A stretch of 59,685 nt of DNA from a virus: the IMG/VR virus record IMGVR_UViG_3300010334_002189, positions 1-59,685 of that record. One strand, 5' to 3'. Positions 1 to 45,314 of this stretch are shown here, one piece after another. The notes under the pieces were generated by a model, which saw nothing but the letters and a program-made list of their open reading frames with translations, did not search any database and had not been told where the DNA came from. The stretch's first letter is position 1. Each line of letters starts with the position of its first letter. A program made the position numbers and the translations under genes.

Positions 1-591
1 ATAGCATACAGTATCACAGGTGGTTATGGTTGCGGCTACCATACATGGAAAACCATATTCATTGACATGGGAACCATTAAGATTAATGTTGAAGATACTG
101 CAAGTTTGAACAATCGAGGAATTAGTCAAGGTCTAGGATTTAGCGAATTAACACCTAATGAAAAACTTCTATATACCAGCCCTGCCGGAGGTGGTGGTGG
201 AGGCTATGGTGGATACGGAGGTTATGGTGGATACGGAGGTTATGGTGGATACGGAGGTTATGGTGGAGAGGACTGTAACGGCGGCAGTGGAGGTTATGGC
301 GGATATGGCGGATATGGCGGATATGGAGGCTATGGAGGCTATGGAGGCTATGGCGGATATGGCGGTTATGGCGGCTATGCTTCGAGCCGTTTGAAACTGT
401 TTGGTACCATTAACGGACAAAAATTAGAAATTAGGTCGTTGTTAGACAATGCCGGCCTTGGTATTGAAGTGCGAGGTTCAGTTGCAATGACTGTTACTAT
501 GACACATCCAAGTACTATTAGCGAACGCTCAGTAACTTTGGAATTACCAATGCCTGTAAGTCAGTTGACTCAAGACTGGCAAGAACTTTAA
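1..591 (+). CDS. Gly-Tyr repeat protein, 5' end outside window
   Basis: The frame is open from base 1, so the gene probably begins upstream; an internal ATG lies at 67. The centre is a low-complexity run of about 64 residues built from GGY units (bases 187-378), interrupted once by a short EDCNGGSGG spacer. After the repeat comes a roughly 70-residue ordered tail rich in beta-prone residues. Gly-Tyr-rich linkers occur in phage tail and neck proteins and in adhesins, so a virion role is possible but is inference only. A perfect T4-type late promoter follows the stop codon. I do not recognise the family. Confidence 0.7.
   Translation: MAYSITGGYGCGYHTWKTIFIDMGTIKINVEDTASLNNRGISQGLGFSELTPNEKLLYTSPAGGGGGGYGGYGGYGGYGGYGGYGGYGGEDCNGGSGGYGGYGGYGGYGGYGGYGGYGGYGGYGGYASSRLKLFGTINGQKLEIRSLLDNAGLGIEVRGSVAMTVTMTHPSTISERSVTLELPMPVSQLTQDWQEL
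187..378 (+). repeat. GGY codon tandem repeat
   Basis: This is a tandem array of about 9-bp units encoding Gly-Gly-Tyr. Third-position changes (ggt/gga/ggc, tat/tac) vary between units, which shows selection on the protein rather than recent slippage alone. The array has two blocks, one before and one after an interrupting EDCNGGSGG segment. The long open frames on other frames and on the opposite strand here are shadows of this repeat. Confidence 0.85.
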
Positions 592-608
592 ACGGTTAAA
601 CGGTTGCT

Positions 609-634
609 AACGCATCTATAAATAGCATTGCGTT
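609..634 (+). other. Inverted repeat enclosing late promoter
   Basis: AACGCA (609-614) pairs with TGCGTT (629-634), with partial extension on both sides (GGTT...AACC). The late octamer lies in the loop. It may be a weak terminator for the upstream gene or a structured promoter region. There is no U-tract, so termination is uncertain. Confidence 0.4.
617..624 (+). promoter_or_regulatory. T4-type late promoter TATAAATA
   Basis: This is an exact match to the T4 late promoter octamer. It lies 45 bases before the lipoprotein ATG, which has an AAGG Shine-Dalgarno. T4 late promoters need only this -10 element and use gp55 sigma. No -35 hexamer is evident. Confidence 0.7.
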
Positions 635-668
635 TGCTAACCATTGGCAACAATTCTAAGGTTAAAAT

Positions 669-1073
669 ATGAAAAAAATAACAGTTTTGCTTTTAGCTTT
701 GAGTATGCTAAGTGGTTGCGCTCTAATTGATGCATACTTAATGACTAAGTTTGACTCAGCCGAATATGGTTTAATTACTACAATTCGATCTGAAGCACAG
801 CAATTTAAATCACAATGTGATAATGCACAGGTTAGCAAAGAGAATGCAGTTAAGTTGTCAAACAATACCAGAACTTTTGAGTTATACAGCGAGAATATTC
901 CTCATAATGAAAATGGCTACAAGGCATCAAAGTCTTTGAATGAAATTGCACAAGGATTGACATTTCGTTATGGAAATGGTCCAGTGAGTGTGGCATTTTG
1001 TAAAATCAAGTTTGAAAGTATTGAAAACAGCGCAACAGTTATTCAACATACACTAGGAAATAGACCAAGATGA
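669..1073 (+). CDS. Small phage lipoprotein
   Basis: The 134-residue product begins MKKITVLLLALSMLSGC, a clear lipoprotein signal peptide with lipobox LSGC, so Cys17 is the expected lipidated residue. The mature part is polar with two further Cys and no recognised domain. It is preceded by AAGG and a perfect late promoter, and overlaps the next gene by 4 bases (ATGA). A lysis-related outer-membrane role such as an o-spanin is possible, but the mature part is longer than usual for one and the next gene does not look like an i-spanin. Confidence 0.75.
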   Translation: MKKITVLLLALSMLSGCALIDAYLMTKFDSAEYGLITTIRSEAQQFKSQCDNAQVSKENAVKLSNNTRTFELYSENIPHNENGYKASKSLNEIAQGLTFRYGNGPVSVAFCKIKFESIENSATVIQHTLGNRPR

Positions 1074-1327
1074 ACTTAGATGAAATCAGTCAAGCATTGG
1101 CAGAACTTGCCAATTGTGGAGACCCAGTATTTGCCAACGCGGCAGAGCAAGTCAAGCAACAAACTCAGCAGGTCCTTATGGGGCAATTGAGCAAAGAAGA
1201 ATTGTGTGAAGTGCTAAGTGATATGCAAAGACAGTTAGATATTATCCAAGAGATGAATCAACTGGCTTTCAAAGAAAAGCTCAATGCTGTTATTACCGGA
1301 TTAATTGCGATTGCCAGCGTAGCCTAA
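1070..1327 (+). CDS. Hypothetical protein with C-terminal hydrophobic helix
   Basis: The 85-residue product is mostly helical and glutamine-rich (residues 20-60), ending in a hydrophobic stretch (about residues 70-85) that could be a single membrane segment. Its start overlaps the lipoprotein stop by 4 bases, implying translational coupling. I do not recognise the family. Adjacency to a lipoprotein suggests an envelope role, by inference only. Confidence 0.6.
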   Translation: MNLDEISQALAELANCGDPVFANAAEQVKQQTQQVLMGQLSKEELCEVLSDMQRQLDIIQEMNQLAFKEKLNAVITGLIAIASVA

Positions 1328-1337
1328 GAAGTGATTG

Positions 1338-1682
1338 ATGGATAAAAAATTAGAAGATGCATTGGCCTTTGCCAATTATCGATTAACTTTACAGGTACAA
1401 CGGCAAAACATCAATGCCCAAATTGAAGCGGCACTTTTAGTGTCACATCAAGGTGCGATCTTTAAATCTACGCAAGAGCTAATAGCGTTTGTTAGCGTCA
1501 AGGCAACCCGCAACGAGAAAGTTTTTGTTGAGGACCACAGTGGTAATGTTATAACAATTGATGATGCAAACGAATTTCTAAATGTTTTGATTCAAGCTTA
1601 TGATTCTGCCATGGAAACAAAACAAGTTGAACAGAAAAAGCTGAAGTCAGCAAGGTCTACCGCAAAAATTGTAGGGCTATAA
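1338..1682 (+). CDS. Hypothetical protein
   Basis: The 114-residue product is predicted helical with a lysine-rich C-terminus. I chose ATG at 1338; a TTG directly before it (1335) is also in frame. It lies between the small helical protein and the first glycosyltransferase, with only a few bases on each side, so it belongs to the same transcript. No domain recognised. Confidence 0.6.
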   Translation: MDKKLEDALAFANYRLTLQVQRQNINAQIEAALLVSHQGAIFKSTQELIAFVSVKATRNEKVFVEDHSGNVITIDDANEFLNVLIQAYDSAMETKQVEQKKLKSARSTAKIVGL

Positions 1683-1684
1683 TC

Positions 1685-2563
1685 ATGAGCACCAAGGGAT
1701 TCATGATGTTTGCTTACAACAATGAGCAGTTGGATTATACGCAATTGGCCATTGTTGCCGCGTATGCTGTAAAAAAATTCATGCCTGAGTATCCAGTTGT
1801 ACTGGTTACCAATCAGCAAAGCATGGAACATTGTAAACAAACGCACGGTATTGATATTATGAACGCCGCGTTTGATGACATTATATTAACCAATCCCGAA
1901 TACGAAAGAAACATGCGTTTACATCACGATGGCGCATATCACAGCTTCAACGCACAGTTTACAAACACCAACAAACACGACATTTATAATCTAAGTCCAT
2001 TTGATGAAACAATTTTAATTGACACAGATTACCTATGTGGCAATGCCAATTTGGCCAAGCTGTTTGGCGGTCAGAATGATGTGGCCATGTACAGAGATGC
2101 TAGAAATTTAAGAATGGAAGAACCATACACCACAGAACGCTGGCTACATTATGCTGGCATTCGCATGTGGTGGTCAACTGTGGTGTACTGGCGTAAGAGT
2201 GAAGAAGCAGAACATTTTTTCAGTATTTGGTCAGCAGTAAAACAAAATTGGGAATACTATCGCTTCCTATACAAATTCCCAGGCACATTGTATCGCACAG
2301 ACTATTCAGCCAGCATTGCGGCTCACATGTGTGATGGTTGGTCAGATGGTGGCTTCATTGGACAAATTCCATATTATCTTAGATACCAAGACCAGCGAGA
2401 TGATATTGTTGAAGTGGTTGATTCAAACCGTTGGATCATGTTAAGCAATCTGCCAGAAGAGTGGAAAAATATGGTAGTTGAAGTAACGGGTGAGGACTTG
2501 CATTTAATGAACAAGAAAAGCATCATCCGCAACTACGATAGAATCATGGAAGTGTTGGCATGA
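1685..2563 (+). CDS. Glycosyltransferase, GT-A type (GT8-like)
   Basis: The 292-residue product opens with a Rossmann-like beta strand and PVVLVTN segment. It carries LIDTDYL near residue 115, which fits the DXD motif that binds the metal and nucleotide-sugar in GT-A enzymes. Length and the C-terminal Trp/Tyr-rich part fit family 8-like transferases. Donor and acceptor cannot be read from sequence. It overlaps the next gene by 4 bases and opens a run of several glycosyltransferases. Confidence 0.6.
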   Translation: MSTKGFMMFAYNNEQLDYTQLAIVAAYAVKKFMPEYPVVLVTNQQSMEHCKQTHGIDIMNAAFDDIILTNPEYERNMRLHHDGAYHSFNAQFTNTNKHDIYNLSPFDETILIDTDYLCGNANLAKLFGGQNDVAMYRDARNLRMEEPYTTERWLHYAGIRMWWSTVVYWRKSEEAEHFFSIWSAVKQNWEYYRFLYKFPGTLYRTDYSASIAAHMCDGWSDGGFIGQIPYYLRYQDQRDDIVEVVDSNRWIMLSNLPEEWKNMVVEVTGEDLHLMNKKSIIRNYDRIMEVLA

Positions 2564-3261
2564 CCGTACATATACTTACACTTCCAGGACGAACAAACCA
2601 TGCAGATATCACCAAGATGGACACAAAGTTTGTTGATGCAATGATGCCAATTAACATTGTAGACTTGCCAGATGATGCTTGGGAACAATTAAAAATATTA
2701 TCAACTTTAAAATTAGAGTCAGGTGATATTATTTGCAGGGCTGGATTGTGTCCACGTCAAACTACTTTTGAAATTGCTAAAGTTGCCGTATCTAAGAAGC
2801 TGAATTTTATGCCGGGCACAGGTGTAGACCATCGCGGACAGCCAATACCTCCTGGTAAGATACTGGAAAGATTACCCTTAGAAAAAAATGGTAATAACAT
2901 TTGGACCTATCTATTGATAGTGGGAGATCCAGAATCTGCCCAATTGAGTTTCGAACTGGCATTGCATCTTGACAAAGCTGTGTATTGGCAAAATTACGAG
3001 CCAGAAGTTCCAACACTCGAACATGTACTGGGTGTGGTGTTTTCAACAGGCCATTGGCATGCACCAGACTGGTTTAAAATAGTTGACATGAGTGTGAGAA
3101 ATTTAGAGCTTGCACCAATCATGTATGCACATCATATGTGGCATGATTGGATTGCATTTTACCCTGCCAATGGAAATTTTAAACTGGAAAATCACAGTCA
3201 AATTTATCCAGTGTGGCTAGCAGAAAGTGAAAAGCCATTGGAGTATTGGCGCCGTGGATGA
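2560..3261 (+). CDS. Hypothetical protein in glycosyltransferase operon
   Basis: The 233-residue product is rich in Trp, His and Pro with no domain I recognise. A stretch with several histidines (HWHAPDWF, then YAHHMWHDW) could bind metal, but no known motif fits. It is ATGA-coupled to the upstream glycosyltransferase and overlaps the following gene, so it probably works with them. Confidence 0.55.
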   Translation: MTVHILTLPGRTNHADITKMDTKFVDAMMPINIVDLPDDAWEQLKILSTLKLESGDIICRAGLCPRQTTFEIAKVAVSKKLNFMPGTGVDHRGQPIPPGKILERLPLEKNGNNIWTYLLIVGDPESAQLSFELALHLDKAVYWQNYEPEVPTLEHVLGVVFSTGHWHAPDWFKIVDMSVRNLELAPIMYAHHMWHDWIAFYPANGNFKLENHSQIYPVWLAESEKPLEYWRRG

Positions 3262-4228
3262 AATTCAATTTGAACTTCGTCCTAGAAAACGAAAAAGAGA
3301 AGAGTTTTGGTCTGTGGAATATGATTCCAGCTCTGGGCTTATCAATTCTATTAGACCAGGACAGTCAGCAGATCCTTCACATATTGTCTTGTCGTATGCA
3401 AGAGTAAAAGATCTATTGTCTGGTTCTGCAAATCAAAACGATTATAAAATTGCATTCAATGAAACGCTGGGAGCATTGGATCTAGTAGACATCAAAAAAC
3501 CCAGCAAGTTTAAAAAGAAGCAAATTCAACTTGGGTGGCTCAGTGCCGGTGAAAATCTATACAATCCGCTGACTCCTTTGCGTGTATTATTATTCAATGA
3601 AAATGGAATGATCAGGGTAGAAGCCAGTCGTAGATGGTCAACTGAAATCAAAGAACGCCTTGACAAGGACACTGTAGCTGAACATATACCTATGTTTCTA
3701 ACTGACGAAGAAGACCCGCATCAACTATTTGGAAAAACTGATGTACCTGTTGCAGACATTGTGGAACGCGGATATTGGGAACAGCGTCTTTGGAGTTTTA
3801 TGAGTCATGACACCGTGATCAAGATACTGTATCAAGGTCAGCGTGTTAGAATTAATATTCCACCAGTTGCAGAAGAGCTGTCGTTTAATAGAGTACAGAA
3901 TTATCATTTATTTTCTGGTGTCAGCGACGAACAAACAGTTATCAGTCATATGGGCCGCGGAAAACACATTTCTCTCTTTAAGAAGGGCAATGGCATATGG
4001 GCACAAAGTCATTATGAAAAAGGATCCAGCATAGATTCTCATTTTGGAAATTTAAAAGTGGCAATATTAAATGGTGATGATCCAGAAGCATTTCATTCTT
4101 GGTCAGAACTTCCAGCACTGATGATGAGACAGCATCATCCCTTTGAAATTGTTGCAGATTGGCCTTACCAGACCGTACCGCAAGTGTTATATAAAGCAAG
4201 CAATATAGATATCGGAGTACTAAATTGA
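3254..4228 (+). CDS. Hypothetical protein in glycosyltransferase operon
   Basis: About 324 residues from a GTG at 3254, with GGAG roughly 11 bases upstream. An earlier GTG at 3227 would give 333 residues with a longer overlap. The N-terminus is basic (RPRKRKREE). No known domain is seen. Its stop codon overlaps the TTG start of the next glycosyltransferase, so translation is probably coupled. Confidence 0.55.
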   Translation: MDEIQFELRPRKRKREEFWSVEYDSSSGLINSIRPGQSADPSHIVLSYARVKDLLSGSANQNDYKIAFNETLGALDLVDIKKPSKFKKKQIQLGWLSAGENLYNPLTPLRVLLFNENGMIRVEASRRWSTEIKERLDKDTVAEHIPMFLTDEEDPHQLFGKTDVPVADIVERGYWEQRLWSFMSHDTVIKILYQGQRVRINIPPVAEELSFNRVQNYHLFSGVSDEQTVISHMGRGKHISLFKKGNGIWAQSHYEKGSSIDSHFGNLKVAILNGDDPEAFHSWSELPALMMRQHHPFEIVADWPYQTVPQVLYKASNIDIGVLN

Positions 4229-5196
4229 AAACCCCTATTAGCGAATTTGATGTAGTGTTCATCAGCTACGATGAACCAAATGCAGATGCAAACTATGCAG
4301 ATTTATTGGAAAAATGCCCGTGGGCCAAACGCAGTCACGGAGTATATGGAAGCGATGCTTGTCACAAGGCCGCGGCCAAACTAGCCGAAACTGAACGCTT
4401 TATCACAATTGATGCAGACAACAAAGTGCGACCAGACTTTTTTGAACTTGAACTAGATTTAGGAAAATTTGATCGCAGTGATGTGTTATCATGGTCCGGC
4501 AAGAATATAGTCAATGGACTGGTATACGGCAACGGTGGCGTCAAATTGTGGCCGGTTAAGGTTGTTGAGCAGATGCGTACTCATGAGGCAGTTGATTCGG
4601 GTGCTGGCGCTGTGGACTTTTGCTGGGACATTCACTATCATCAATTGAACAACATCTACAGCGATGTGTTTAACAATGCAACTCCATATCAGGCATATCG
4701 TGCAGGATTTAGAGAAGGTGTCAAATTGGCCTTGCATGATGGAAAGCCGATGGACTGGCGCCAAATTGCAGATAAGAACCATTTTAAAAATCATCGTAGA
4801 CTACTGGTTTGGATGAGTGTTGGTATGGATGTGCAGAATGGGCTATGGGCCATGTACGGTGCTCGTTTAGGTTGCTACTTAACCAACTTGCGTCGAGATT
4901 GGGACTACAAATTGGTTGCTGACTTCGAATGGCACAATCAATACTGGGCAGAAACAGTAATGCCACAATTTGTTGGTGACGAAGAAACTTGTCCCAACAG
5001 CAAGTACTCTTGGAGCCGAACAAAGCTGTTGGCCGAGACTCGTAAAATTGGTCGCATACTACAACAAGATTTAAGACTTGAAATTGCAGACTTGGATGAA
5101 GCAGGCAGTCGCTTCTTTAAGGCCAGTTATTTCAATCCGCATCGACTTGGCCCAACTGTCAAGGAAAGCGATGTTGAACAGTTTATTGCGGAGTAA
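4225..5196 (+). CDS. Phage glycosyltransferase-like protein (copy 1 of 3)
   Basis: The 323-residue product carries ITIDADNKVRPDFF near residue 62, a DXD-like motif in a GT-A fold context. Diagnostic segments shared with the gene at 6059 are SYDEPNAD near the N-terminus, HKAAA, VDFCWD, and AGFREGVKL. It starts with TTG overlapping the previous stop. It is probably a nucleotide-sugar-dependent transferase of a phage family; substrate unknown. Confidence 0.6.
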   Translation: MKTPISEFDVVFISYDEPNADANYADLLEKCPWAKRSHGVYGSDACHKAAAKLAETERFITIDADNKVRPDFFELELDLGKFDRSDVLSWSGKNIVNGLVYGNGGVKLWPVKVVEQMRTHEAVDSGAGAVDFCWDIHYHQLNNIYSDVFNNATPYQAYRAGFREGVKLALHDGKPMDWRQIADKNHFKNHRRLLVWMSVGMDVQNGLWAMYGARLGCYLTNLRRDWDYKLVADFEWHNQYWAETVMPQFVGDEETCPNSKYSWSRTKLLAETRKIGRILQQDLRLEIADLDEAGSRFFKASYFNPHRLGPTVKESDVEQFIAE

Positions 5197-5199
5197 ACA

Positions 5200-6072
5200 T
5201 TGTTAGATGTTTTCTTTATCTCAATGGGCGAACAAGGTAGCGAAGCCAACTGGACACGCCTTTTAGAATTTGCGCCCACAGCAAAGCATATCAGCAATGT
5301 CAAGGGCATCTATCAGGTACACGAAACATGTGCAAAACAAAGTACCACAGAAAACTTCTGGGTAGTTGATGCAGATGCATGGATCGTAGATGGATTTGAT
5401 TTTAATTTTATTCCCAGCGCAGAAACAGGACATTGGGATATTCCAGAAAACGAATGTGTATTGGTATGGAATTCAAAAAATGTAGCAAATGAACTGGAGT
5501 ATGGTTACGGTGGTGTAAAGCTATTTCCACGCCAGCCATTCCTAGAAAGCCGCCCTTGGGAGCTGGACCTATCAACCACAATTGGTCGCGCAAGTGTCAA
5601 CATGTCCAGCATCAGTTGCGAAACTAGATTTAATGTAACGCCAGAATCTGCTTGGATAGGCGCCTTTCGCGAATGTGCAAAGCTGTCATCCTTGTCAATG
5701 ATAAAGAGCAGGGTCAACTCTGCAAAAAGAAAAGAGCGCAACGAGCTGGAAGATCTATCCATTTACATTGCAACTCAAGACTGGACCGATGAGAAAAAAG
5801 CAAACTATCGAAAAGCCCAGGGTATGCTGATCAAAGAAAAATATCTTAAAGAAACAGATATTTTTACATACTGGGAAGCAATTGAAAAGTGCAGTGAACG
5901 AAGATTCATATGGTGTACGCATGGTTGGTTCTCAAACAACGGAAAGTACACAATTGATGGTGCAAGAAGTGGATCCAAGTACGGCATGCGTAACAGTGAT
6001 GACATTGAAAAGCTAAATTTAATCAATGATTGGTCGTGGCTAAAAAAGGAATTTAAAAATGTCAATGTTTAA
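5200..6072 (+). CDS. Phage glycosyltransferase-like protein (divergent copy 2 of 3)
   Basis: The 290-residue product shares the layout of its neighbours: an N-terminal FFIS strand, VVDADAWIVDGF near residue 50 as DXD-like motif, and a YGYGGVKL segment matching YGNGGVKL in copy 1. The C-terminal half has diverged and carries a basic insertion (SRVNSAKRKERNE). Start is TTG. It overlaps copy 3 by 14 bases. The three adjacent genes look like an ancient tandem duplication. Confidence 0.55.
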   Translation: MLDVFFISMGEQGSEANWTRLLEFAPTAKHISNVKGIYQVHETCAKQSTTENFWVVDADAWIVDGFDFNFIPSAETGHWDIPENECVLVWNSKNVANELEYGYGGVKLFPRQPFLESRPWELDLSTTIGRASVNMSSISCETRFNVTPESAWIGAFRECAKLSSLSMIKSRVNSAKRKERNELEDLSIYIATQDWTDEKKANYRKAQGMLIKEKYLKETDIFTYWEAIEKCSERRFIWCTHGWFSNNGKYTIDGARSGSKYGMRNSDDIEKLNLINDWSWLKKEFKNVNV

Positions 6073-7027
6073 AGCAGTCAAGAATCCAATCATCTATAAA
6101 AAGATGTCAGATGTTCCAGTAGTATTTTTAAGCTTTGATGAACCCAATGCAGATAAAAATTGGGAACTGCTAAAGTCAATTACTCCACATAAACGAATTG
6201 CCAGAGTACATGGTGTGGTCGGATTTGATGCGGCACACAAGGCCGCTGCCACTGAATTTGCCAGCAGTGAATATATCATCACAGTAGATGCAGACAACGA
6301 AGTTGATCCAGCTTTCTTCAATAAACAATTGCCCGAAGGCATGGATGGAAAAGTCAGCTTTACCTGGGGCGGCAGACAATACACAAACGGACTCATGTAC
6401 GGCAATGGCGGCCTAAAAATGTGGAGTACTGAACATCTTGCTAACATGAAAAGTCATGAACTGGCCACTGAAGATCGAGATGCAATAGATTTTTGTTGGG
6501 ACTTCAATAGATACAAAGAGCTACCAGGTTGTTATTCTAATGTATACACAAACGCCAGTGCTTACCAAGCATTTCGAGTGGGATTTAGAGAAGGCGTCAA
6601 GCTTAGTATGGAACAAGGACAAGTGCTTGCATTTGAATCTTGGCCAGAAATGATGCATGCCGCAAACTATCAAAGGCTATTGACATGGATGACATTGGGT
6701 GCTGATGTAGAGAATGGCATGTGGAGTGTATACGGTGCAAGACTCGCTGTAAAAATGTTACAATACGACAACTTTGACTGTGTCAATATCAGAGACTATG
6801 CCTGGTTCAAAGACTTTTTTGCATTGCATGCAAATGCTGACCCAATCAAGGCAAGCAAAAGTTTAGGCAAGCACATAAGTGAAGGATTAGGCTTCATACT
6901 ACCAGATTTTACCGATGAACAAAGCTACTTCTTAAAGATGTTGCAATTGCATCCGGCCAAATCGTTAACATATGATGATGTTAAATGGAGAACCAACTTG
7001 AATTTATATGGATGGTTCAATGGATAA
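6059..7027 (+). CDS. Phage glycosyltransferase-like protein (copy 3 of 3)
   Basis: The 322-residue product closely resembles copy 1 along its length: SFDEPNAD, VVGFDAAHKAAA, ITVDADNEVDPAFF (DXD-like), NGLMYGNGGLKMW, AIDFCWD, VGFREGVKLS and YGARLAVKM. ATG start. As for copy 1, the donor sugar and acceptor cannot be inferred. Confidence 0.6.
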   Translation: MSMFKAVKNPIIYKKMSDVPVVFLSFDEPNADKNWELLKSITPHKRIARVHGVVGFDAAHKAAATEFASSEYIITVDADNEVDPAFFNKQLPEGMDGKVSFTWGGRQYTNGLMYGNGGLKMWSTEHLANMKSHELATEDRDAIDFCWDFNRYKELPGCYSNVYTNASAYQAFRVGFREGVKLSMEQGQVLAFESWPEMMHAANYQRLLTWMTLGADVENGMWSVYGARLAVKMLQYDNFDCVNIRDYAWFKDFFALHANADPIKASKSLGKHISEGLGFILPDFTDEQSYFLKMLQLHPAKSLTYDDVKWRTNLNLYGWFNG

Positions 7028-8198
7028 GAATACAGAACTAAGATCTGCATTGCTTTATTTTGTTGATGAAGCAATTGGATTTCGCAAAAGTGTACACCAT
7101 TTTCATCGTTGGCTTGAAACTGAAGACGAATACGAGCTTACACAGTTGATTGTTGAAGTTGGAAGAGAGTACGCATTTGATTTATGGCCTTTGTTGAATG
7201 CAGTAAGAGAAGGCGATGACCAGCAAGGATTAATTGCACTACAAGTGGCAATAGAAACCGGACTGTATGTTCCAACAGACTGGACTGATGGCAAAACAAT
7301 TAAGTTAACGCCCCTAAAGGTCAATCTAATAGAAACAGACTTGACGGGCATGGCCAATAAATTATGGACACTCAATGAGTGGAATAACTTAAACATTGAA
7401 GCATTTGAAACACCTGCCTTGCCTGTGTTGGCCCTGGCACATCAATTGATAATTGATGCAAGAGAAGACTTTGACAAATTCTTTCAATTGGTTGAGATGA
7501 TAATTGGCAAAGAGTCATTGCTTTCCTGTGTAGTAGATACAGATATAAAAAAATTAGGCGTTTGCATTGGAAACGAATACTATTACAATCAACGAGATCA
7601 TATCAAAAGATTGGCTGTTGCAATTAATAATGATAGGGAATTAAACTGGAAAGATGCACTGAGCCGAAATCAAGTCAAAAGTAAAATTTGGCTGGTTGAA
7701 AAACTAATAGAAAGAAATCTAATTCCAAAGAAACGCAAGATGGGCGATGTTGAAACTTCAACATTGGTTGTTGGCGGTTGGGTTGGATTGTTACCATTCT
7801 TATCTAACATGCTGGGACAAAATTTAGATTCAGTTATCAACATTGACATTGACACATCTGTACATTCTGCCGCAATAGAGTTAAATTCTGGATTCCACAA
7901 CAATTTTAAAAATTCAGGAACAGATGTAAGAGAACTACAACTATCCAAATATAAAAAGCTGTTGCTAATTGACACCATTGTAGAGCATTTTAAAGATCAC
8001 GGCGATTGGATAAAGTCCTTGCCGGCTGGAACTACAGTAGTGCTACAAGGCAATGACATGTTTGACGTACCTGACCATGTCAACTGCCATAATAACCTAG
8101 AAGAATTTGTTGCATCCTCTGGCTTAAATACTATTCTATGGGCAGGAGAGTTAAACCTGTACATGTGCAATAGATATATGGCCATTGGAAAACTATAA
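7020..8198 (+). CDS. Class I SAM-dependent methyltransferase-like protein
   Basis: About 392 residues. The C-terminal third has a Rossmann methyltransferase pattern: LVVGGWVGLLPF as motif I, INIDIDTS as the acidic strand after it, and KKLLLIDTIVEHF as the strand-4 region. The N-terminal 240 residues are helical and not recognised. Start is ATG 7020 with an 8-base overlap; ATG 7008 is an in-frame alternative. The acceptor may be a sugar, peptide or nucleotide made by neighbours. Confidence 0.5.
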   Translation: MDKNTELRSALLYFVDEAIGFRKSVHHFHRWLETEDEYELTQLIVEVGREYAFDLWPLLNAVREGDDQQGLIALQVAIETGLYVPTDWTDGKTIKLTPLKVNLIETDLTGMANKLWTLNEWNNLNIEAFETPALPVLALAHQLIIDAREDFDKFFQLVEMIIGKESLLSCVVDTDIKKLGVCIGNEYYYNQRDHIKRLAVAINNDRELNWKDALSRNQVKSKIWLVEKLIERNLIPKKRKMGDVETSTLVVGGWVGLLPFLSNMLGQNLDSVINIDIDTSVHSAAIELNSGFHNNFKNSGTDVRELQLSKYKKLLLIDTIVEHFKDHGDWIKSLPAGTTVVLQGNDMFDVPDHVNCHNNLEEFVASSGLNTILWAGELNLYMCNRYMAIGKL

Positions 8199-31359: not shown

Positions 31360-31388
31360 ATTATAACAGATAGTTAGTCAATGAGCAA
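31360..31388 (-). promoter_or_regulatory. Possible sigma-70 promoter TTGCTC-N17-TATAAT
   Basis: -10 TATAAT (31365-31360) is perfect; the -35 TTGCTC (31388-31383) is weak, and lies in the end of the upstream gene. It would drive folE with a leader of about 20 bases. Confidence 0.45.
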
Positions 31389-31655
31389 GACCTCGCTTGG
31401 CCAAGTTAAAAGATAAAGCATTAGATCTTCGGGCTTCTTAAAATGTACCATGATTGTAATGTCAAACATTTCATTTGAATACTTGGCTGACTCAATCTTT
31501 GCCAACTTGCGCCAATTAAATGGATCACCTTTGTAATCTGTAGCAGACCATCTGTTCTTGCAATTAGCAATTAACCACCGCCTAATGTTTTTTAGTATAA
31601 ACACATGGCTGGCAGTCTTGGCCGAATAAACTTTATCCTTGGTTTGCGTTGGCAT
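31374..31655 (-). CDS. Small protein with C-terminal LxLLTW motif
   Basis: 93 residues from ATG 31655, overlapping the glutaredoxin gene by 23 bases. The C-terminus MVHFKKPEDLMLYLLTWP matches the end motif (F-x-x-x-D-x-x-x-F-x-L-T-W) shared by a cluster of small proteins at 42.3-44.8 kb. A basic helical centre (NIRRWLIANCKNRW) precedes it. Function unknown. Confidence 0.55.
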   Translation of the reverse strand: MPTQTKDKVYSAKTASHVFILKNIRRWLIANCKNRWSATDYKGDPFNWRKLAKIESAKYSNEMFDITIMVHFKKPEDLMLYLLTWPSEVLLID

Positions 31656-31878
31656 AGAACTCACTGTTACGCAAGTCATCCCAGCCACCGATTAACTTAC
31701 CATCAATGATAATCTGAGGAACAGTTCTAGCGGTAGGTACTGCTTCCATTAGCATTTCGCGAGTGAATCCATTGGTACCAACCTTGTGTTCAGTGTATGT
31801 AAGATTTTTACTCTTAAACCAATTCTTTGCCATGTCGCAGTAGGGACAAGGTTGTTTGCTGTAAATTGTAATTTCCAT
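31633..31878 (-). CDS. Glutaredoxin
   Basis: The 81-residue product has CPYC (11-14), the glutathione-binding TVPQI with cis-Pro, and GGWDDL near the end: a complete class I glutaredoxin as in T4. It reduces ribonucleotide reductase or other disulphides. Starts at the last base of the gene upstream. Confidence 0.9.
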   Translation of the reverse strand: MEITIYSKQPCPYCDMAKNWFKSKNLTYTEHKVGTNGFTREMLMEAVPTARTVPQIIIDGKLIGGWDDLRNSEFYANANQG

Positions 31879-38836: not shown

Positions 38837-41485
38837 TTAAGAAAACAAGTCATCGATAAAGCCTCGGTCCTTACTTTGGTTCAAGTCCCAATGTAATACA
38901 CCTAGCAAGTTTTCAATCTTACTGTCAATGATGGTTTCTTCCATTGCAGTATGATCAAATGGTAATAGCTTAAACCAATCTGGAAGATTCAATTCGTCAA
39001 TTGGATAAGCAATAGATGTTATGTTGTAGTTGTTGGATCTCAGTTTACAAACAATGGCTTTTTGACCATCCGTTATTTCCATACTTCGGTTGTCACTGTG
39101 CGCCTGCTTGAATCGATTCCAGTTGATGGCCGCCATGGCATGACCAACTCCGCACTTGCCAGTCTTTTCGTAAACAGCAGTATGTTTAGTTAGATTGTTC
39201 ACACGCTTGGGGGTGCCCTTTTCCCAACCAGGTCTGCTCTTGAACTCCTCACGGAACTGTTTGACACGGGCCATGACCTCATATTCAGTTTTACCTTCCA
39301 GGGTCATAGTCAATGCTTCTTCCAAGAACCGTTGCATGAACTCTGGAGTGTCTGCTCGCTTCATGTCCAGACCCATGGCTTTCAGTTCGCCCAGTGATCC
39401 ATTTGTATCTTTGCGCTTGCCTTCCTTGTCAAAGATAAGAACAGCATAACGCTTCTTGGTCATGTAGATGCCTTTGCTGGCAACCAGTTCTCGACCTGCT
39501 TTGATAATCTCACCCTGGGCTTGTGGACAATTAAATGCGGTATTCATAAATGCCGGAAAGGTATCATTTACCTGTTCGCTTATTGCATCATACAGTTCAA
39601 TGATCTTTTCTTTGGTCCATTCAAATTGACCATTCTCAATTTGTTCTTTGAAGATGGGATATGCACTGAAGTAAACAGAGTCAGTGTCACCATAGATAAT
39701 TGCTTTACCTGTGTGATCATGCTCTCCAGTTAGGCTGTCGTTGACACTTCCTGCCATGTGTCTGGCAACAAGCCGACCGCATAAGGTAGTACTTTGTCCT
39801 AGTCGTTGATCAAAGAACCTCGAACCTGCATTCAACAACGCACCATACGCAGAGTTCAAGTTAATTTTCTTAACCAACTGCCGTTTGTCCCAAAACTCAA
39901 CCTCTTCAGGAGTCGTTGCTTCTTTGAGTTTCTTTTGTAATTCTTTACGCTCGGCGTACCAACGCTCTAGCAGTCCAGGTATGATACCTTTGTTGGTATA
40001 GTTAAAGATTGTACCGTTGCCACTGATAATCAAAGGTTGTCCACTAAGGAATACATAATCGTACACTTGTGCAGAACTCATTTGTGTACTGGTTCCATCA
40101 GCCCAATCAACTGTTTCAGTTTGTCCAATGTCCCTGGCCATTACACTTTCATACTCGTAGCAAGCAAACTTGCCATCCCAAAAGTCTGCAATACCCCGAC
40201 CAGAAGCAATGCTGTCATCAATACCGGCCAGTGTGCGTGTCTGTCTAACTTGACCAACAATGGTTTCTGGGCTCATGTTCAGCGCACGAATTAGAGATGG
40301 ATACAGACTGTTAATGTCCATACTTCCGATCCACTCATGCATGCCTGCTTTGGGCACAGCAACATACGCACCTGCCGCGGCATTGTCCTTGGCATCTTCA
40401 CTGCGCCGTGGACGATCTGGAACCACCATACCTAGACCATGTGCCTCATTGATGACTGCTTGGTCTGTAACTGCCACCGCACCCAATGTTGCACGAAGTC
40501 CAACGGTATTGGCATGACTAATAAGATTAGTAAGTTCAATAAATTGCAACTTGGCATCTAATTTTTTAAGCAAGATGACGTCTTGTCTGTTGTAGGCAAT
40601 AAACTTTTCAAAATCATTATTGTACAACTGATCCAATGAGCCTTCATATGGTATTTTCTTTTCACCAATCTCGTACTCACCAATGGCATCCAAGCGATAG
40701 GTATGCATCTCGTGATAGTTGTACTTGCGATACAGTTCAAGATAGTCCAGGTGAACTCGACCAATTGGATCGTAAGTTTCCAATGTTCTGCCATACTTTT
40801 CAAACTCTCGCTTTTTAGGAAACTGATCCCACAAGCAAAACTTGCGTGTTTGTTCTTTGCTCAGTACACGGCTGATACGATTTGTAGTGTATGGGATATC
40901 AAATCCTTCACTGTTCCAGCCACTCATTACATCTGCATCATCAATCAAGTCAAGAAACATTTCCAACATTTCTTTTTCATTGGAACACAAGATTGTATCA
41001 TCAAATCGTTTAACAATGTCCTCAGCCTGTGGCTGTGGCATTGCATCTGGCTTGAGAACCAGTGTAACAGTCCTGTCTAGCCACCCCAGGTGTACTGTGA
41101 TTGCTGTAATGGTATTAAAAGGATCACTGGGATCAGCAAAGCCCTTGACCTTATCGTATGCAACCTCAATGTCAAAAAATGCAACATGAAGTTTAGGTGC
41201 TTCTTGACCGCCATAGATTTCTTCTAGACATCGATTCAACGGTCTATAGTCGCTTTCACATAACTTTTTGTTGCTGTGAATACGCCGTTCTTTGTCAAAT
41301 GCTGTGGCATTGCTCAAAAGCACTCGGCTGACTCTGTTGCCAGCAATGTCAGTGAACTTGCCTTTGTTGTCAGGATAGTACAAGACATACTTTGCTGGAT
41401 ACTCTTTGAGCACCCTCTTGCCATCCACTCGTTCTACAACATGGATGATTTCTTTTTTCTTATCGTGATATGCGTCAATGAACAT
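38837..41485 (-). CDS. 43: Family B DNA polymerase, T4 gp43-like
   Basis: 882 residues. The 3'-5' exonuclease motifs are FFDIE (Asp105, Glu107), NSEGFD (191-196) and YNRQD (298-302). Polymerase motif A is DINSLYPS from Asp390, motif B is KKINLNSAYG (539-548), and motif C is YGDTDSVY (598-605). Length matches T4-type replicative polymerases, and the gene seems intact. It replicates the phage genome together with the clamp encoded next to it. No promoter is seen directly upstream, so it probably relies on the transcript from 45348-45376. Confidence 0.97.
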   Translation of the reverse strand: MFIDAYHDKKKEIIHVVERVDGKRVLKEYPAKYVLYYPDNKGKFTDIAGNRVSRVLLSNATAFDKERRIHSNKKLCESDYRPLNRCLEEIYGGQEAPKLHVAFFDIEVAYDKVKGFADPSDPFNTITAITVHLGWLDRTVTLVLKPDAMPQPQAEDIVKRFDDTILCSNEKEMLEMFLDLIDDADVMSGWNSEGFDIPYTTNRISRVLSKEQTRKFCLWDQFPKKREFEKYGRTLETYDPIGRVHLDYLELYRKYNYHEMHTYRLDAIGEYEIGEKKIPYEGSLDQLYNNDFEKFIAYNRQDVILLKKLDAKLQFIELTNLISHANTVGLRATLGAVAVTDQAVINEAHGLGMVVPDRPRRSEDAKDNAAAGAYVAVPKAGMHEWIGSMDINSLYPSLIRALNMSPETIVGQVRQTRTLAGIDDSIASGRGIADFWDGKFACYEYESVMARDIGQTETVDWADGTSTQMSSAQVYDYVFLSGQPLIISGNGTIFNYTNKGIIPGLLERWYAERKELQKKLKEATTPEEVEFWDKRQLVKKINLNSAYGALLNAGSRFFDQRLGQSTTLCGRLVARHMAGSVNDSLTGEHDHTGKAIIYGDTDSVYFSAYPIFKEQIENGQFEWTKEKIIELYDAISEQVNDTFPAFMNTAFNCPQAQGEIIKAGRELVASKGIYMTKKRYAVLIFDKEGKRKDTNGSLGELKAMGLDMKRADTPEFMQRFLEEALTMTLEGKTEYEVMARVKQFREEFKSRPGWEKGTPKRVNNLTKHTAVYEKTGKCGVGHAMAAINWNRFKQAHSDNRSMEITDGQKAIVCKLRSNNYNITSIAYPIDELNLPDWFKLLPFDHTAMEETIIDSKIENLLGVLHWDLNQSKDRGFIDDLFS

Positions 41486-42121: not shown

Positions 42122-42358
42122 TTATAGGCTATGATCATCTTTCAACTTTTGTAACATTTCTTCTTCGGCATGTTCACGCCACTCAGTGAGCCATGTACTG
42201 CTGTCGCATTCTCTTACATGCGCCATTACTCGCTTACGCCCTGCACCTTCCATTCCTTCTCCCAAGAAGAAATGCATTACTACATGTCCGTGGTGCATGA
42301 TTTCAATTATCATTGAATCATGTTTGGCATTGCGCCAGCTAAATTCTTGGTACATCAT
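42122..42358 (-). CDS. Hypothetical protein
   Basis: 78 residues with several Met and His (MIIEIMHHGHVVMHFFLGEG) and an acidic helical tail. ATGA overlap with the gene upstream. Not recognised. Confidence 0.55.
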   Translation of the reverse strand: MMYQEFSWRNAKHDSMIIEIMHHGHVVMHFFLGEGMEGAGRKRVMAHVRECDSSTWLTEWREHAEEEMLQKLKDDHSL

Positions 42359-42579
42359 TTACCCCATGTCAGCGTAAACAGCAGGTAGTCTGCTTGTTCT
42401 CTAAATTCAAAGATGCCGTCACCTTTAAAATTCCAGCCATCAGTGACCTTGTCACCAAACTGTTTGTTGCACCATTCAATACAAGGTGTCCATCCTTGGT
42501 ACCGGTATTTGCCATTGACTGTTTCGTCAACCGGCGCCATAATACTGGCCACATACCAACCACTCAACGCACTTCTCAT
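42355..42579 (-). CDS. Small protein with C-terminal FxLTWG motif (cluster member)
   Basis: 74 residues. Ends FEFREQADYLLFTLTWGK, the end motif seen in neighbouring genes at 42997, 43272, 43925, 44193 and 44486. The N-terminal part contains WYVASIMAPVDE and a Trp-rich centre. Overlaps both neighbours by 4 bases. Function unknown. Confidence 0.58.
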   Translation of the reverse strand: MRSALSGWYVASIMAPVDETVNGKYRYQGWTPCIEWCNKQFGDKVTDGWNFKGDGIFEFREQADYLLFTLTWGK

Positions 42580-42995
42580 GCTTTAGCAAGTATAGCATAA
42601 ACTTTACCAGCCAGCAACTTTTCTTTACTCATTGCCTCTCGTTCCCAAGGTTGGTCAAAGTAGTCGGCCTTAACATGACTACCCATCCAAAATCTTTTTG
42701 TACGGATGGTCTTGTACTGCCCTTTGGCATATTGTTTTACATGAACCATTTCATGCGCCAGAGTCTCAAACAGTCGTTCTTGTTTTAAATCCGCATCCAG
42801 TAGCATTAGAATATGCTTGGGGGCAATCTCACATACGCTACCTTTCATACCGTCAACATTTGCTAGACCTTTCTTAAACTGAATCTCTACAGTATAAGTG
42901 CTGTTGGAAATTTTAAGTTCTTGTTTATAAAGATGTGCTGTTGCGTTAACCAAGGCCTGTTTGCCTGCACTTTTTGAATGTACAACAATGTTCAT
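42576..42995 (-). CDS. HExxH zinc-metallopeptidase-like protein
   Basis: The 139-residue product has TLAHEMVHVKQYAKG near residue 80 (HEMVH, the HExxH zinc motif) and a downstream PWEREAMSKE that could supply the third ligand, an arrangement like SprT-type or other small metallopeptidases. The N-terminal part has a beta hairpin. No signal peptide, so it is probably cytoplasmic. Target unknown. Confidence 0.6.
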   Translation of the reverse strand: MNIVVHSKSAGKQALVNATAHLYKQELKISNSTYTVEIQFKKGLANVDGMKGSVCEIAPKHILMLLDADLKQERLFETLAHEMVHVKQYAKGQYKTIRTKRFWMGSHVKADYFDQPWEREAMSKEKLLAGKVYAILAKA

Positions 42996-42996
42996 A

Positions 42997-43275
42997 TTAG
43001 CCCCATGTCAGTTTTAAAATTGCTAACAATTCACAATGTACATCAAATTTTGCAGATGATGGCTCATGAAAATTGTAGCGAGTAGGTTGTTCATAAGGAT
43101 GTTCATACCATTGGTCCTGAGATTGTGTTCTGGTCCAAGTAGCAATATCCTTGCTCACATGTATAGTATACCACTTTTTGTTGTCTATGTCAACCATTGC
43201 CAAAACAGTATAACCTGGACCAGAATTAGGAAACACAATATTCCATTGTTGTTGGATTGCTGTTTTAACTATCAC
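42997..43275 (-). CDS. Small protein with C-terminal LTWG motif (cluster member)
   Basis: 92 residues. Ends AKFDVHCELLAILKLTWG, a weaker version of the shared end motif. Centre is aromatic (WYTIHVSKDIATWTRTQ). Overlaps the upstream gene by 4 bases. Function unknown. Confidence 0.55.
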   Translation of the reverse strand: MIVKTAIQQQWNIVFPNSGPGYTVLAMVDIDNKKWYTIHVSKDIATWTRTQSQDQWYEHPYEQPTRYNFHEPSSAKFDVHCELLAILKLTWG

Positions 43276-43526
43276 GAGTATGTCATCCTAAATAGCAATG
43301 CTTCTTCTTCATCGTTAAAAGTAACTTCCAACTTTGGAGAACCATTATTGTATCTTACTTCGTACACCGCACTTGGACAATTCATATTCAACCATATTTT
43401 AAGATATTCAAATCCTGGATATGGAACTGGAGCAGGATCAATAAAATAAGGAAAGCACCAGAAACACCAAAGAGAACCATGCCGCCAACTCTTAGTAATT
43501 TGTACTCCCCAATTTTCGTCGTCCAT
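43272..43526 (-). CDS. Small protein with C-terminal motif (cluster member)
   Basis: 84 residues. Ends LEVTFNDEEEALLFRMTYS, matching the shared motif; the first half is Trp/Phe-rich (SLWCFWCFPYFIDPAPVPYP). Start coupled to the SpeD-like stop (TAATG). Function unknown. Confidence 0.55.
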   Translation of the reverse strand: MDDENWGVQITKSWRHGSLWCFWCFPYFIDPAPVPYPGFEYLKIWLNMNCPSAVYEVRYNNGSPKLEVTFNDEEEALLFRMTYS

Positions 43527-43888
43527 TAATCTGCTTGTCTTGTTAAAAAGTATTTTCTAATTGAACCAACACCAAAGTGTTTCTTTATGCTGGCTTCAAC
43601 AATGGCTGTATCAAATTCTTTACAACTAAAAACATCAAGATAGATCTGTTGTAGATTATCTACAAAGTGAGCAACAATACTACTGGTAACAATTACTTGA
43701 ACCACTGTAAAGCCAGCCTTATCAGGAAATTCTCCTGCGGTGTATTCAATCCTGGGCTCACCAATTGGCTCCATGTTGATGTCCTTGACTAACTGGCGGA
43801 TCCAGGTATCAACATTGTCAAAGTCTTTCATTTGATCCGGATTGCACCGCCCGCAATCTAAAATTAAGTGGTAACCCCAATAGTTCAT
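43526..43888 (-). CDS. S-adenosylmethionine decarboxylase-like protein (SpeD)
   Basis: 120 residues from ATG 43888 with AGGAG. It begins MNYWGYHLILDCGRC, like bacterial SpeD (GxHxxxDxxxC), and has VTSSIVAHFVDNLQQIYLDVFSCKEFD, aligning with ESHxSIHTWPE...AxVDVFTC. The Ser that becomes the pyruvoyl group is kept but the preceding Glu and following His are not, so self-processing is uncertain. C-terminus FLTRQ fits the family. SpeD makes decarboxylated SAM for spermidine; T4-like cyanophages are known to carry such genes. Confidence 0.55.
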   Translation of the reverse strand: MNYWGYHLILDCGRCNPDQMKDFDNVDTWIRQLVKDINMEPIGEPRIEYTAGEFPDKAGFTVVQVIVTSSIVAHFVDNLQQIYLDVFSCKEFDTAIVEASIKKHFGVGSIRKYFLTRQAD

Positions 43889-43912
43889 TTTTCTCCTTTG
43901 AACAATCAAAAT

Positions 43913-43941
43913 ATTATAACAGATTTATATCTGTTCAGCAA
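43913..43941 (-). promoter_or_regulatory. Possible sigma-70 promoter TTGCTG-N17-TATAAT
   Basis: -10 TATAAT (43918-43913) is perfect; -35 TTGCTG (43941-43936) is weak, as at folE. The spacer contains TATAAATC, a near late octamer. It precedes the SpeD-like gene by about 25 bases. Confidence 0.45.
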
Positions 43942-44203
43942 CCGCACCGCCCCAAGTTAACTTACACAAAAATAAATCTTCTTTGTTTTTAAATTGTAAT
44001 TGTGTCATTTCGTCCCAGTGACTACCTCTTACATCACTAACATCACTGGTCGACATAATCCATAAATCATTGTCACCATGATACATGTTGTGATACGAAT
44101 ACTCGTTGCGAGTGGTCATTACTAATCCGCTAATGTTTTCGCACAACCAATTTAACAATGCATCGAGGTCAACATCGCCAATGTACAGACTGTTAAAATA
44201 CAT
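43925..44203 (-). CDS. Small protein with C-terminal LTWGG motif (cluster member)
   Basis: 92 residues. TQLQFKNKEDLFLCKLTWGG near the end carries the shared motif. N-terminal half is acidic (DVDLDALLNWLCENISGLV). Overlaps the upstream gene by 11 bases. Function unknown. Confidence 0.57.
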   Translation of the reverse strand: MYFNSLYIGDVDLDALLNWLCENISGLVMTTRNEYSYHNMYHGDNDLWIMSTSDVSDVRGSHWDEMTQLQFKNKEDLFLCKLTWGGAVAEQI

Positions 44204-44486
44204 TGAAGTTTAGCATAAAGTATGCCGCCTCATCCTTGCTGGTAATGTTAACAGTGATCATTGGATCACCTGAATTAAATCTGGGAGTACAGTCTGCGGT
44301 AGGGCAATGTGCTTCCATCCAATTTGTGAACTCTCGATGATCATTGCAATAGACCCAGCAATGCCAGCCCACAATTTCTTCACGGAACTCTTTCTGAGGT
44401 TGCTTCTTATCCTTTAGTAGTACATAAGGAATGTCATGCCATCCATCTTCATACCGCCAGTGATGAACTGATATTTGTTGTTTCAT
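44193..44486 (-). CDS. Small protein with C-terminal motif (cluster member)
   Basis: 97 residues. Ends ITVNITSKDEAAYFMLNFNVF, a variant of the shared end motif. The middle WHCWVYCNDHREFTNWMEAHCP is Trp/Cys-rich and resembles the centre of the protein at 44486. TAATG coupling with that gene. Function unknown. Confidence 0.57.
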   Translation of the reverse strand: MKQQISVHHWRYEDGWHDIPYVLLKDKKQPQKEFREEIVGWHCWVYCNDHREFTNWMEAHCPTADCTPRFNSGDPMITVNITSKDEAAYFMLNFNVF

Positions 44487-44776
44487 TACGCACCGTGATA
44501 CAATTTAAAAAGTGCCGCATCTTCTTTTCCTTTGAACAAGATACGATTTCGGTATTGATCGTCAACCCAACACCAGTTGGAATTTTGACAAACATCATGT
44601 GGGGTGGGAGTTCTTTCATGCCATTCCCAATCTTTAAAGCCCTTACTAGCACCCCATGTGTTCCAGCACCAGGCTCTCACATTATGAAAGTTAACTTCAT
44701 TGCTTTGGCTCAACTCGACAAAATACTTGAAATACGGATAGCCCGAGTATCGCTTGTCAAGTTTTCGAACCTGCAT
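44486..44776 (-). CDS. Small protein with C-terminal motif (cluster member)
   Basis: 96 residues from ATG 44776, which shares a base with the upstream stop (TGATG); GTG 44785 is an alternative. Ends NRILFKGKEDAALFKLYHGA. The middle VRAWCWNTWGASKGFKDWEW parallels the Trp-rich middle of its neighbour. Function unknown. Confidence 0.57.
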   Translation of the reverse strand: MQVRKLDKRYSGYPYFKYFVELSQSNEVNFHNVRAWCWNTWGASKGFKDWEWHERTPTPHDVCQNSNWCWVDDQYRNRILFKGKEDAALFKLYHGA

Positions 44777-45063
44777 CACATCCACATTCTAATTAGTGCT
44801 ATGGTATCAATAGTGACCAGCAAAGTATAGTTGGCCAACATGCCGGTGCTTCCTCTAGTTTTACTGGCCCATGCAAAAATAGCACACTGGGTTATGAACA
44901 GGGGATACAGAATTAAAAACGGAGGATTAGGAACTGTAAGCATCATTGTAAAAGCACAACCAATGCTTAGGAACCAAGCGAGAATTTCCAGCACACATCT
45001 TACTGGATTTTCTTGCCAATCCTCGCGAATGTAATCTCTTACACTGGCAAGTAACTTTTTCAT
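44776..45063 (-). CDS. Small membrane protein
   Basis: The 95-residue product has three hydrophobic segments at about residues 23-42, 46-66 and 74-92. Lys/Arg-rich N-terminus suggests that end faces the cytoplasm. Its start overlaps the DsbA-like stop by 1 base. A host-membrane role such as superinfection effects is possible; not recognised. Confidence 0.62.
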   Translation of the reverse strand: MKKLLASVRDYIREDWQENPVRCVLEILAWFLSIGCAFTMMLTVPNPPFLILYPLFITQCAIFAWASKTRGSTGMLANYTLLVTIDTIALIRMWM

Positions 45064-45314
45064 TACTGTTTGTTTTTAGTTACAATTAGAATTTCTTCAA
45101 CAGCTTCCAAGTCGCTTTGGTCTTTGTCAAAGTCGCCTTTGAAGGCCTTGGTAATTGCTTTGGTAAGGACAGCTGGTTTAATTTCCATTTCTTCAGCAAT
45201 GGCGGCAACTGTTTCCTTTAGGCCCACACTAAGGTCATCAATTTCTCGTTTGACTTGGACACCTTCTTGGATCACTTTGGTAAGTTTGGCAATTTGTTCT
45301 GGGGTAAAGCTCAT
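45063..45314 (-). CDS. dsbA: DsbA-like double-stranded DNA-binding protein
   Basis: The 83-residue product matches T4 DsbA in size and helical layout: EIDDLSVGLKETVAAIAEEM, then KPAVLTKAITKAFKGDFDKDQS and an acidic helix. T4 DsbA binds DNA near late promoters and enhances late transcription. It has a strong early promoter and AGGAG, and heads the transcript that leads to DNA polymerase. Assignment by pattern and length, not by a catalytic motif. Confidence 0.6.
   Translation of the reverse strand: MSFTPEQIAKLTKVIQEGVQVKREIDDLSVGLKETVAAIAEEMEIKPAVLTKAITKAFKGDFDKDQSDLEAVEEILIVTKNKQ

Follow-up and report, generated by a model that had tools for sequence, protein, structure and literature searches.

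A viral DNA stretch of 59,685 nucleotides (IMG/VR record IMGVR_UViG_3300010334_002189, positions 1 to 59,685; the whole stretch is referred to as the window) carries on its minus strand an array of small genes whose products end in a similar motif, and the question is what these proteins are, how far they extend beyond this locus, and what they may do for the phage. We show that a group of jumbo T4-like phages contains an expanded family of small, single-domain proteins with a common predicted C-terminal core and variable N-terminal bodies, and that a recurrent minority of the bodies are, as judged by sequence similarity, segments of the T4-type major capsid protein. The first-pass annotation of the window, which reported the motif, described something real and under-rated its extent.

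That annotation listed seven small proteins with a common C-terminal motif, and this stands. All seven open reading frames (ORFs) are present where the annotation put them, on the minus strand; the E-values below are from an independent hidden Markov model (HMM) built from 88 rows of alignment A2 (122 rows, three of them from the largest contig, G001), none of which comes from the window or from its polymerase relatives.

42355-42579, minus strand: family member, 74 amino acids, C-terminus LFTLTWGK; its stop overlaps the start of 42122-42358 (ATGA); independent HMM E 3.3e-11
42997-43275, minus strand: deviant family member, 92 amino acids, C-terminus ILKLTWG, lacking the F-x-x-x-E-D part; independent HMM E 0.0017
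43272-43526, minus strand: family member, 84 amino acids, C-terminus VTFNDEEEALLFRMTYS; clusters with 44193-44486; independent HMM E 2.3e-5
43925-44203, minus strand: family member, 92 amino acids, QFKNKEDLFLCKLTWG followed by seven more residues; independent HMM E 1.1e-4
44193-44486, minus strand: family member, 97 amino acids, well conserved (48-86% to orthologues, alignment A3); independent HMM E 0.34
44486-44785, minus strand: family member, 99 amino acids, C-terminus ILFKGKEDAALFKLYHGA; TAATG overlap with 44193-44486; independent HMM E 1.9e-6
31374-31688, minus strand: outlying family member, 104 amino acids, VHFKKPEDLMLYLLTWP followed by seven residues; independent HMM E 1.4e-6

Five of the seven (42355, 31374, 44486, 43272 and 43925) are found at E<1e-3, with no further match among the 612 window ORFs of at least 30 amino acids and none in 20 shuffles of all ORFs. 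The protein at 44193 is linked to the family by BLASTP clustering with relatives of 43272 and by the same predicted core, and 42997 is the most deviant window member, the relatives that were read keeping the tail without F-x-x-x-E-D. Across 254 non-redundant members the C-terminal consensus is h-x-F-x-x-[EK]-[EKQ]-D-A-x-x-F-x-L-[RKT]-W-x, with F kept in 245, D in 225, A in 175, the second F in 244, L in 243 and W in 235, and exactly one residue beyond the W in 205; the motif exists, but the annotation's wording of it was too strict. The conserved positions are mostly hydrophobic, plus an acidic position ahead of the helix, and the alignment of these 254 members contains no conserved set of catalytic residues. 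The bodies had been called Trp-rich, and the Trp content is 5.2% across 318 members, compared with 2.4% for those window ORFs that reach 200 amino acids.

None of the seven window members has a credible match in Pfam or PHROGs. None of 122 members matches PHROGs v4 at 0.01, and a Pfam-A search of members gave five single matches, which is chance level. Among 150 long members there are matches to capsid, DUF7448/PHROG 2650 and P-loop families; wherever the position of such a match was read, it fell in the N-terminal body. By these searches the C-terminal domain belongs to no family described in Pfam-A or PHROGs v4, and we found no description of this small-protein family, and none on phage Phosso (below), in the titles and abstracts that our literature searches listed.

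The window is a piece of a jumbo T4-like phage genome, because the isolates nearest to its DNA polymerase (38837-41485), Sinorhizobium phage Phosso at 48% and Agrobacterium phage Atu_ph07 at 46%, are jumbo phages whose capsid genes are of the T4 type. The annotation suggested looking for the motif elsewhere, and the family proves to be widespread in viral contigs: a back-translated motif pattern hits at least 120 stretches in the viral collection, many within contigs of 240-560 kb; across 257 billion bases of bacterial and archaeal genome sequence it hits once. This hit (L196, DLXM01000070.1) falls in a five-gene array on a 6.4-kb contig that is assigned to a Bacteroidetes metagenome-assembled genome, and the contig is probably phage DNA binned with the bacterium. 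A 122-row profile finds 50 matches in Phosso and seven in Atu_ph07, and none in T4, P-SSM2, phiKZ, CBB, HTVC008M, phage G or XbC2; these nine isolates are the ones that inform on distribution, since 21 of the 30 records searched were picked for the motif or for a related polymerase. By TBLASTN, window protein 44486 matched nothing in the isolates, two other members gave weak matches to Phosso, and a Phosso query gave matches beyond chance in Phosso only. The densest Phosso region (L198, Phosso 1-8183) has family genes interleaved with tRNA genes and an annotated histidyl-tRNA synthetase gene.

With a stricter cut-off at the level of ORFs, there are 180 members in the 561-kb contig G001, 40 in Phosso, five in Atu_ph07 and eight in a 285-kb relative of the window (G013), while reversed-sequence controls of G001, Atu_ph07 and G013 give none each. 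The five Atu_ph07 members are at 182838-183185, 198223-198555, 199522-199830, 239836-240018 and 347322-347651, and Phosso has arrays at 2.9-14 kb and 95-99 kb. These counts are approximate, as they depend on mechanically called ORFs and E-value cut-offs, and the contig member list comes from a tail profile that missed some (L122:4944-5294 was recovered later). The 180 members of G001 cover 55.7 kb, about 10% of the contig bases, a figure in which overlapping ORFs may be counted double; 158 of them have a recognizable paralogue, at a median identity of 38%. The annotation's view of a paralogous family is supported. To our knowledge this is among the larger expansions in a phage. A comparable case is Bacillus phage G, in which a small domain is also multiplied within one jumbo phage genome, a zinc ribbon with about 35 copies described as unprecedented (Iyer et al. 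2021, PMC7824862). The family described here is not a zinc ribbon, has no match in phage G, and reaches 180 copies in one contig.

The shared ending is part of a predicted folded domain. An AlphaFold2 model of 42355 from an alignment of 122 diverse members (predicted local distance difference test score, pLDDT, 79.4) has the order beta-alpha-beta-beta-alpha, and a model of 44193 from its own 41-sequence family only (pLDDT 94.5) has the same core with extra N-terminal strands, so that two divergent members with different alignments arrive at one predicted core. The annotation had named differing folds between members as the outcome that would refute it, and these two models do not differ in that way. 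The motif forms the last strand and the C-terminal helix in both models; the strand, acidic turn and hydrophobic tail that the annotation had read from the letters are modelled as strand, loop and C-terminal helix. We also considered a short linear C-terminal tag, which is ruled out by the six of 180 G001 members that have at least 20 residues beyond the matched stretch and by the conserved part belonging to the predicted domain. In a BFVD fold search nearly all of the best 50 matches to the first model are unnamed small proteins of uncultured tailed phages, together with one from Atu_ph07, and the second model clearly matches its own family only.

The beta-alpha-beta-beta-alpha order is also that of RNA recognition motif (RRM) and ferredoxin-like small domains, which raises the possibility that the family consists of RNA-binding regulators, an RRM-like domain having been amplified to serve many phage or host transcripts. 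Several of the best Protein Data Bank (PDB) matches of the first model are indeed RRM domains (2hyi_B, Z 4.3 over 58 residues at 2.5 Å; 6nx5_A, Z 4.1), and the best sequence-profile match is UPF3X at E 0.12, but the Z scores are below 5 and the second model matches a mixture of unrelated folds (best Z 5.9). An RRM has a four-stranded beta-alpha-beta-beta-alpha-beta sheet, and the fourth strand is absent from both models, since they end after the second helix (at residue 72 of 74 and 94 of 97). The proteins are moreover mostly acidic, with a median isoelectric point (pI) of 5.8-6.4 and only 21-33% of members above pI 8, and we regard RNA-binding regulators as quite improbable.

The variable bodies gave one recurrent match. 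PHROGs gives the major head protein for 12 of the 150 long members (PHROG 138, best 7.9e-11), and Pfam likewise for 12 (PF07068, best 2.4e-10); no other family recurs, there being single matches to DUF7448 (1.9e-23) and a few weaker ones. A PF07068 search of the same records likewise matched small ORFs within arrays. With a profile of the capsid proteins of 14 phages, 13 of 715 members are found at E<0.01, in columns 60-114 (seven members), 158-218 (five) and 330-357 (one), corresponding to about residues 84-138, 250-310 and 437-463 of T4 gp23, and the boundaries recur. In profile-profile comparison of 120 of the 399 clusters with the capsid profile, four exceed 90% probability and five exceed 50%, and with the reversed capsid profile none exceeds 50%. 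At E<1e-3 among 32,509 distinct ORF products, a capsid segment is present in 12 of 710 members, as against five of 16,019 small ORFs not listed as members (Fisher p 1.6e-13). One of those five is plainly a member that had been missed, another two may be members, and the remaining two do not belong to the family. Fourteen of the 17 capsid-bearing small ORFs adjoin a family gene. Two small ORFs, L306:2704-3030 (contig G003) and Phosso 182175-182855, have the N-terminal capsid segment without the family domain. One capsid-bearing member of Phosso is at 113923-114303. The capsid-bearing example in Phosso matches annotated isolate capsid proteins at 8e-4, and at E up to 0.1 it matches 248 records, Phosso included.

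These proteins resemble Gp23/PF07068 proteins in that 12 of the 150 long members carry a segment of 25-60 residues matching PF07068 or PHROG 138. The family members have short segments only, whereas the full-length HK97-type capsid proteins (14 examined) are 384-521 amino acids long, and the family's C-terminal domain has no similarity to the capsid protein. We asked whether bodies derive from other phage proteins as well, but when 295 bodies were compared with the long proteins of four genomes, the capsid protein was the only match outside the family, apart from one Phosso ORF that itself has a capsid segment. A PHROG 2650-type body is a second known body type: in L252:5619-6242 (G001 285619-286242) a body matching PHROG 2650 (3.3e-37, residues 13-151) stands ahead of the family domain, a match that we take to be the same as the DUF7448 match in Pfam. 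A candidate terminase-fragment chimera, L141:3828-4232, was rejected; it matches a terminase PHROG at E 0.0056 and a DnaB-like helicase at 0.045, has no good match in the four genomes, and its body holds a generic P-loop-like segment too weak to name.

The capsid segments are no closer to the capsid protein of the phage that carries them than to others, so that the captures would be old or derived from other phages. The segment in G002 has a similarity of 0.56 to its own capsid protein and 0.58 to the best, and that in L021 has 0.29 to the capsid proteins of its lineage and 0.46 to that of P-SSM2, these being short comparisons of 25-60 columns; L083 and L097, two of the 13 capsid-bearing members, have segments that are 98% identical. 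This pattern, and the fact that T4-type phages share and compete in the same waters, would suit weapons against competing phages, the capsid segments poisoning the capsid assembly of a superinfecting phage and other members binding other proteins of the competitor. The shortness of the comparisons counts against this, as does the divergence of the segments, which differ by 40-70% from all capsid proteins examined, and about 98% of members, those without a capsid segment, would be left unexplained. We consider such weapons unlikely. Alternatively, the members might attach to the capsid lattice as virion-associated or assembly proteins, with the segments as docking parts; of the 131 virion proteins in the relative Atu_ph07, about 78% are reported to have no assigned function (PMC6102473). 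As capsid parts, a set of tens to 180 distinct small proteins in one phage would however be odd, and T4 and six other isolates do without the family; a virion role is thus also fairly improbable.

The most frequent capsid segment overlaps a region of gp23 that triggers Lit immunity. Seven of the 13 capsid-bearing members align with T4 gp23 between residues 84 and 138, a stretch that overlaps the Gol region (residues 93-121); this likeness extends to the capsid-bearing minority only. In the T4 literature Gol is described as a stretch of 29 residues in the first quarter of gp23, its most conserved part, which binds domains II and III of EF-Tu and so enables cleavage of EF-Tu by the Lit protease (PMC3014915). 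The capsid gene is likewise listed as an escape or trigger site for Lit, CapRel, exclusion of T7, CBASS, Pycsar and AbiT (PMC10286901). Gol is part of the capsid protein in T4, whereas here the aligned stretch forms the body of a small chimeric protein. If the Gol-region members bound EF-Tu as the peptide does, they might redirect it for the phage in a takeover of translation. This would account for the seven, but five members hold the 250-310 stretch and one the 437-463 stretch, for which we know of no EF-Tu binding, and such a takeover seems highly improbable.

The family genes form tandem arrays with overlapping stops and starts. In the window array the tail is LTWG or a variant of it, and of the six genes all but one either overlap the following gene or are separated from it by a single base. 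The codons for E, D, A and F of the motif follow background usage, and selection at these positions therefore acts on the protein; the Leu and Arg codons of L-R-W deviate, with Arg encoded by AGG in 106 of 158 cases against 9% in the background. We split the 428 of 538 members fitting the pattern by the position of the next start. AGG makes up 71% of Arg codons at ATGA overlaps (253 genes), 80% at TAATG overlaps (47), 40% where the next start is 0-12 nucleotides on (61), 0% where the first ATG is 13-30 nucleotides on (24) and 27% where there is none within 30 nucleotides (43), while the fraction keeping W is 0.89, 0.89, 0.89, 0.88 and 0.74, respectively. Because the W is kept everywhere and AGG tracks an overlapping next start, the W belongs to the protein and AGG-TGG has a second role. 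In arrays with that tail, the L-R-W codons also act as ribosome-binding site for the gene that follows. A ribosome-binding site alone, as a pure nucleotide signal, is rejected for F, D, A, F and W and accepted as this second role of L-R-W. The role is not uniform, since G001 uses Lys in place of Arg (39 AAA and 21 AAG in 64 overlaps). The annotation had placed the array in an early region, which is unproven: TATAAATA, a T4-type late promoter word, occurs twice in the window and nowhere near the array, but this is no commoner than chance and is uninformative.

The family is in flux within the window's own lineage. Among 76 viral contig loci with related polymerases, four have polymerases 99-100% identical to that of the window at the protein level. 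In one of these relatives, L067 (polymerase 99% identical), 42355 is missing, and 43272 is 57% identical, 44486 85%, 44193 87%, 42997 90%, 43925 91% and 31374 98%; 42355 is present in L029 (71%). Of 15 family comparisons tried, 13 gave a ratio of nonsynonymous to synonymous substitution rates (dN/dS), which is 0.06-0.29 in 12 (0.07-0.08 for 44193, 0.09-0.18 for 31374) and 0.56 for 42997. Synonymous divergence (dS) of 44193 is 1.30, against 0.32 for the polymerase in the same genome pair, and that of 43272 is saturated. Where near-identical genomes differ strongly in a family gene, dS is high, which points to allele exchange together with gene gain and loss, and such turnover under purifying selection fits these sequences better than rapid adaptive protein change. 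The family had been called fast-diverging; large differences and turnover are there, and the proteins themselves are under purifying selection.

Arrays, gain and loss, allele exchange and uniform junctions are also what would be expected of gene cassettes that multiply mainly through recombination, helped by ends that resemble one another and junctions that overlap, and that are of little use to the phage. Against this stand the purifying selection seen on the family genes and the lack of DNA-level conservation in the codons for the conserved E, D, A and F, and we consider this explanation very unlikely.

Three further genes lie in or next to the array.

43526-43909, minus strand: SpeD-like S-adenosylmethionine decarboxylase, not of the family, within the array; PF02675 E 1.1e-15, PHROG 3125 1.7e-23
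42576-42995, minus strand: metallopeptidase-like protein, not of the family, within the array; HExxH, PHROG 10499 (function unknown) 3.1e-20
42122-42358, minus strand: small protein of 78 amino acids, the next gene of the operon, with no family motif seen and no Pfam or PHROG match

The SpeD-like neighbor was correctly recognized in the annotation, and among 13 relatives tested it is present only in the closest genomes (L067, L003, L050 and L002). The metallopeptidase named there has the HExxH motif and the PHROG match, but its Pfam matches (DUF6782, M91 and SprT-like) are weak and all under the curated cut-offs. An 83-amino-acid protein that adjoins the array (window 45063-45314) has about 100% protein identity in L067 and L029 despite a dS of 0.4-0.8, and in contrast to the array appears to be under very strong constraint.

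What, then, might the family do? Our preferred reading, which we hold tentatively, is that its members are variable binders on a common scaffold, directed at the host, some of them acting as capsid decoys. The C-terminal domain would serve all members as a scaffold or docking module, and each variable part would bind a partner of its own, yielding a repertoire of small binders against host proteins. A capsid segment joined to a stable small domain could fill host sensors of the capsid protein, so that the capsid-bearing members would be decoys occupying Lit/EF-Tu through the Gol region, CapRel-like sensors or similar systems, and the remaining members may act differently on the same scaffold. 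Several observations weigh against this reading: a capsid segment is recognizable in only about 2% of members and is absent from all seven window proteins, two small non-family ORFs carry the same segment, so that capture does not strictly require the family domain, the structure models cover two proteins (42355 and 44193), and neither sequence profiles nor structures gave a convincing relative in the PDB (Z 4.3 and 5.9 at best). The host-interaction or anti-defence role proposed by the annotation is unproven, and the capsid-segment chimeras make a defence-related role more concrete. A more specific version, in which the arrays are exchangeable libraries of small scaffold proteins, some displaying capsid pieces, above all the Gol region, as sensor decoys, is rather doubtful.

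If true, the phage would counter a defence by flooding its sensor with fragments of the phage's own (or its rivals') alarm signal, each borne by the same type of carrier domain. The chimeras with capsid segments direct attention to the classical Lit/Gol/EF-Tu system and suggest how phages may blunt capsid-sensing immunity. The double use of the tail, as protein sequence and as ribosome-binding site of the gene behind it, suggests a way in which arrays stay translatable through gene gain and loss. With one unnamed family taking up about 10% of a 561-kb contig and present in a cultured isolate, a sizeable part of the 'dark matter' of jumbo phages becomes one testable question.

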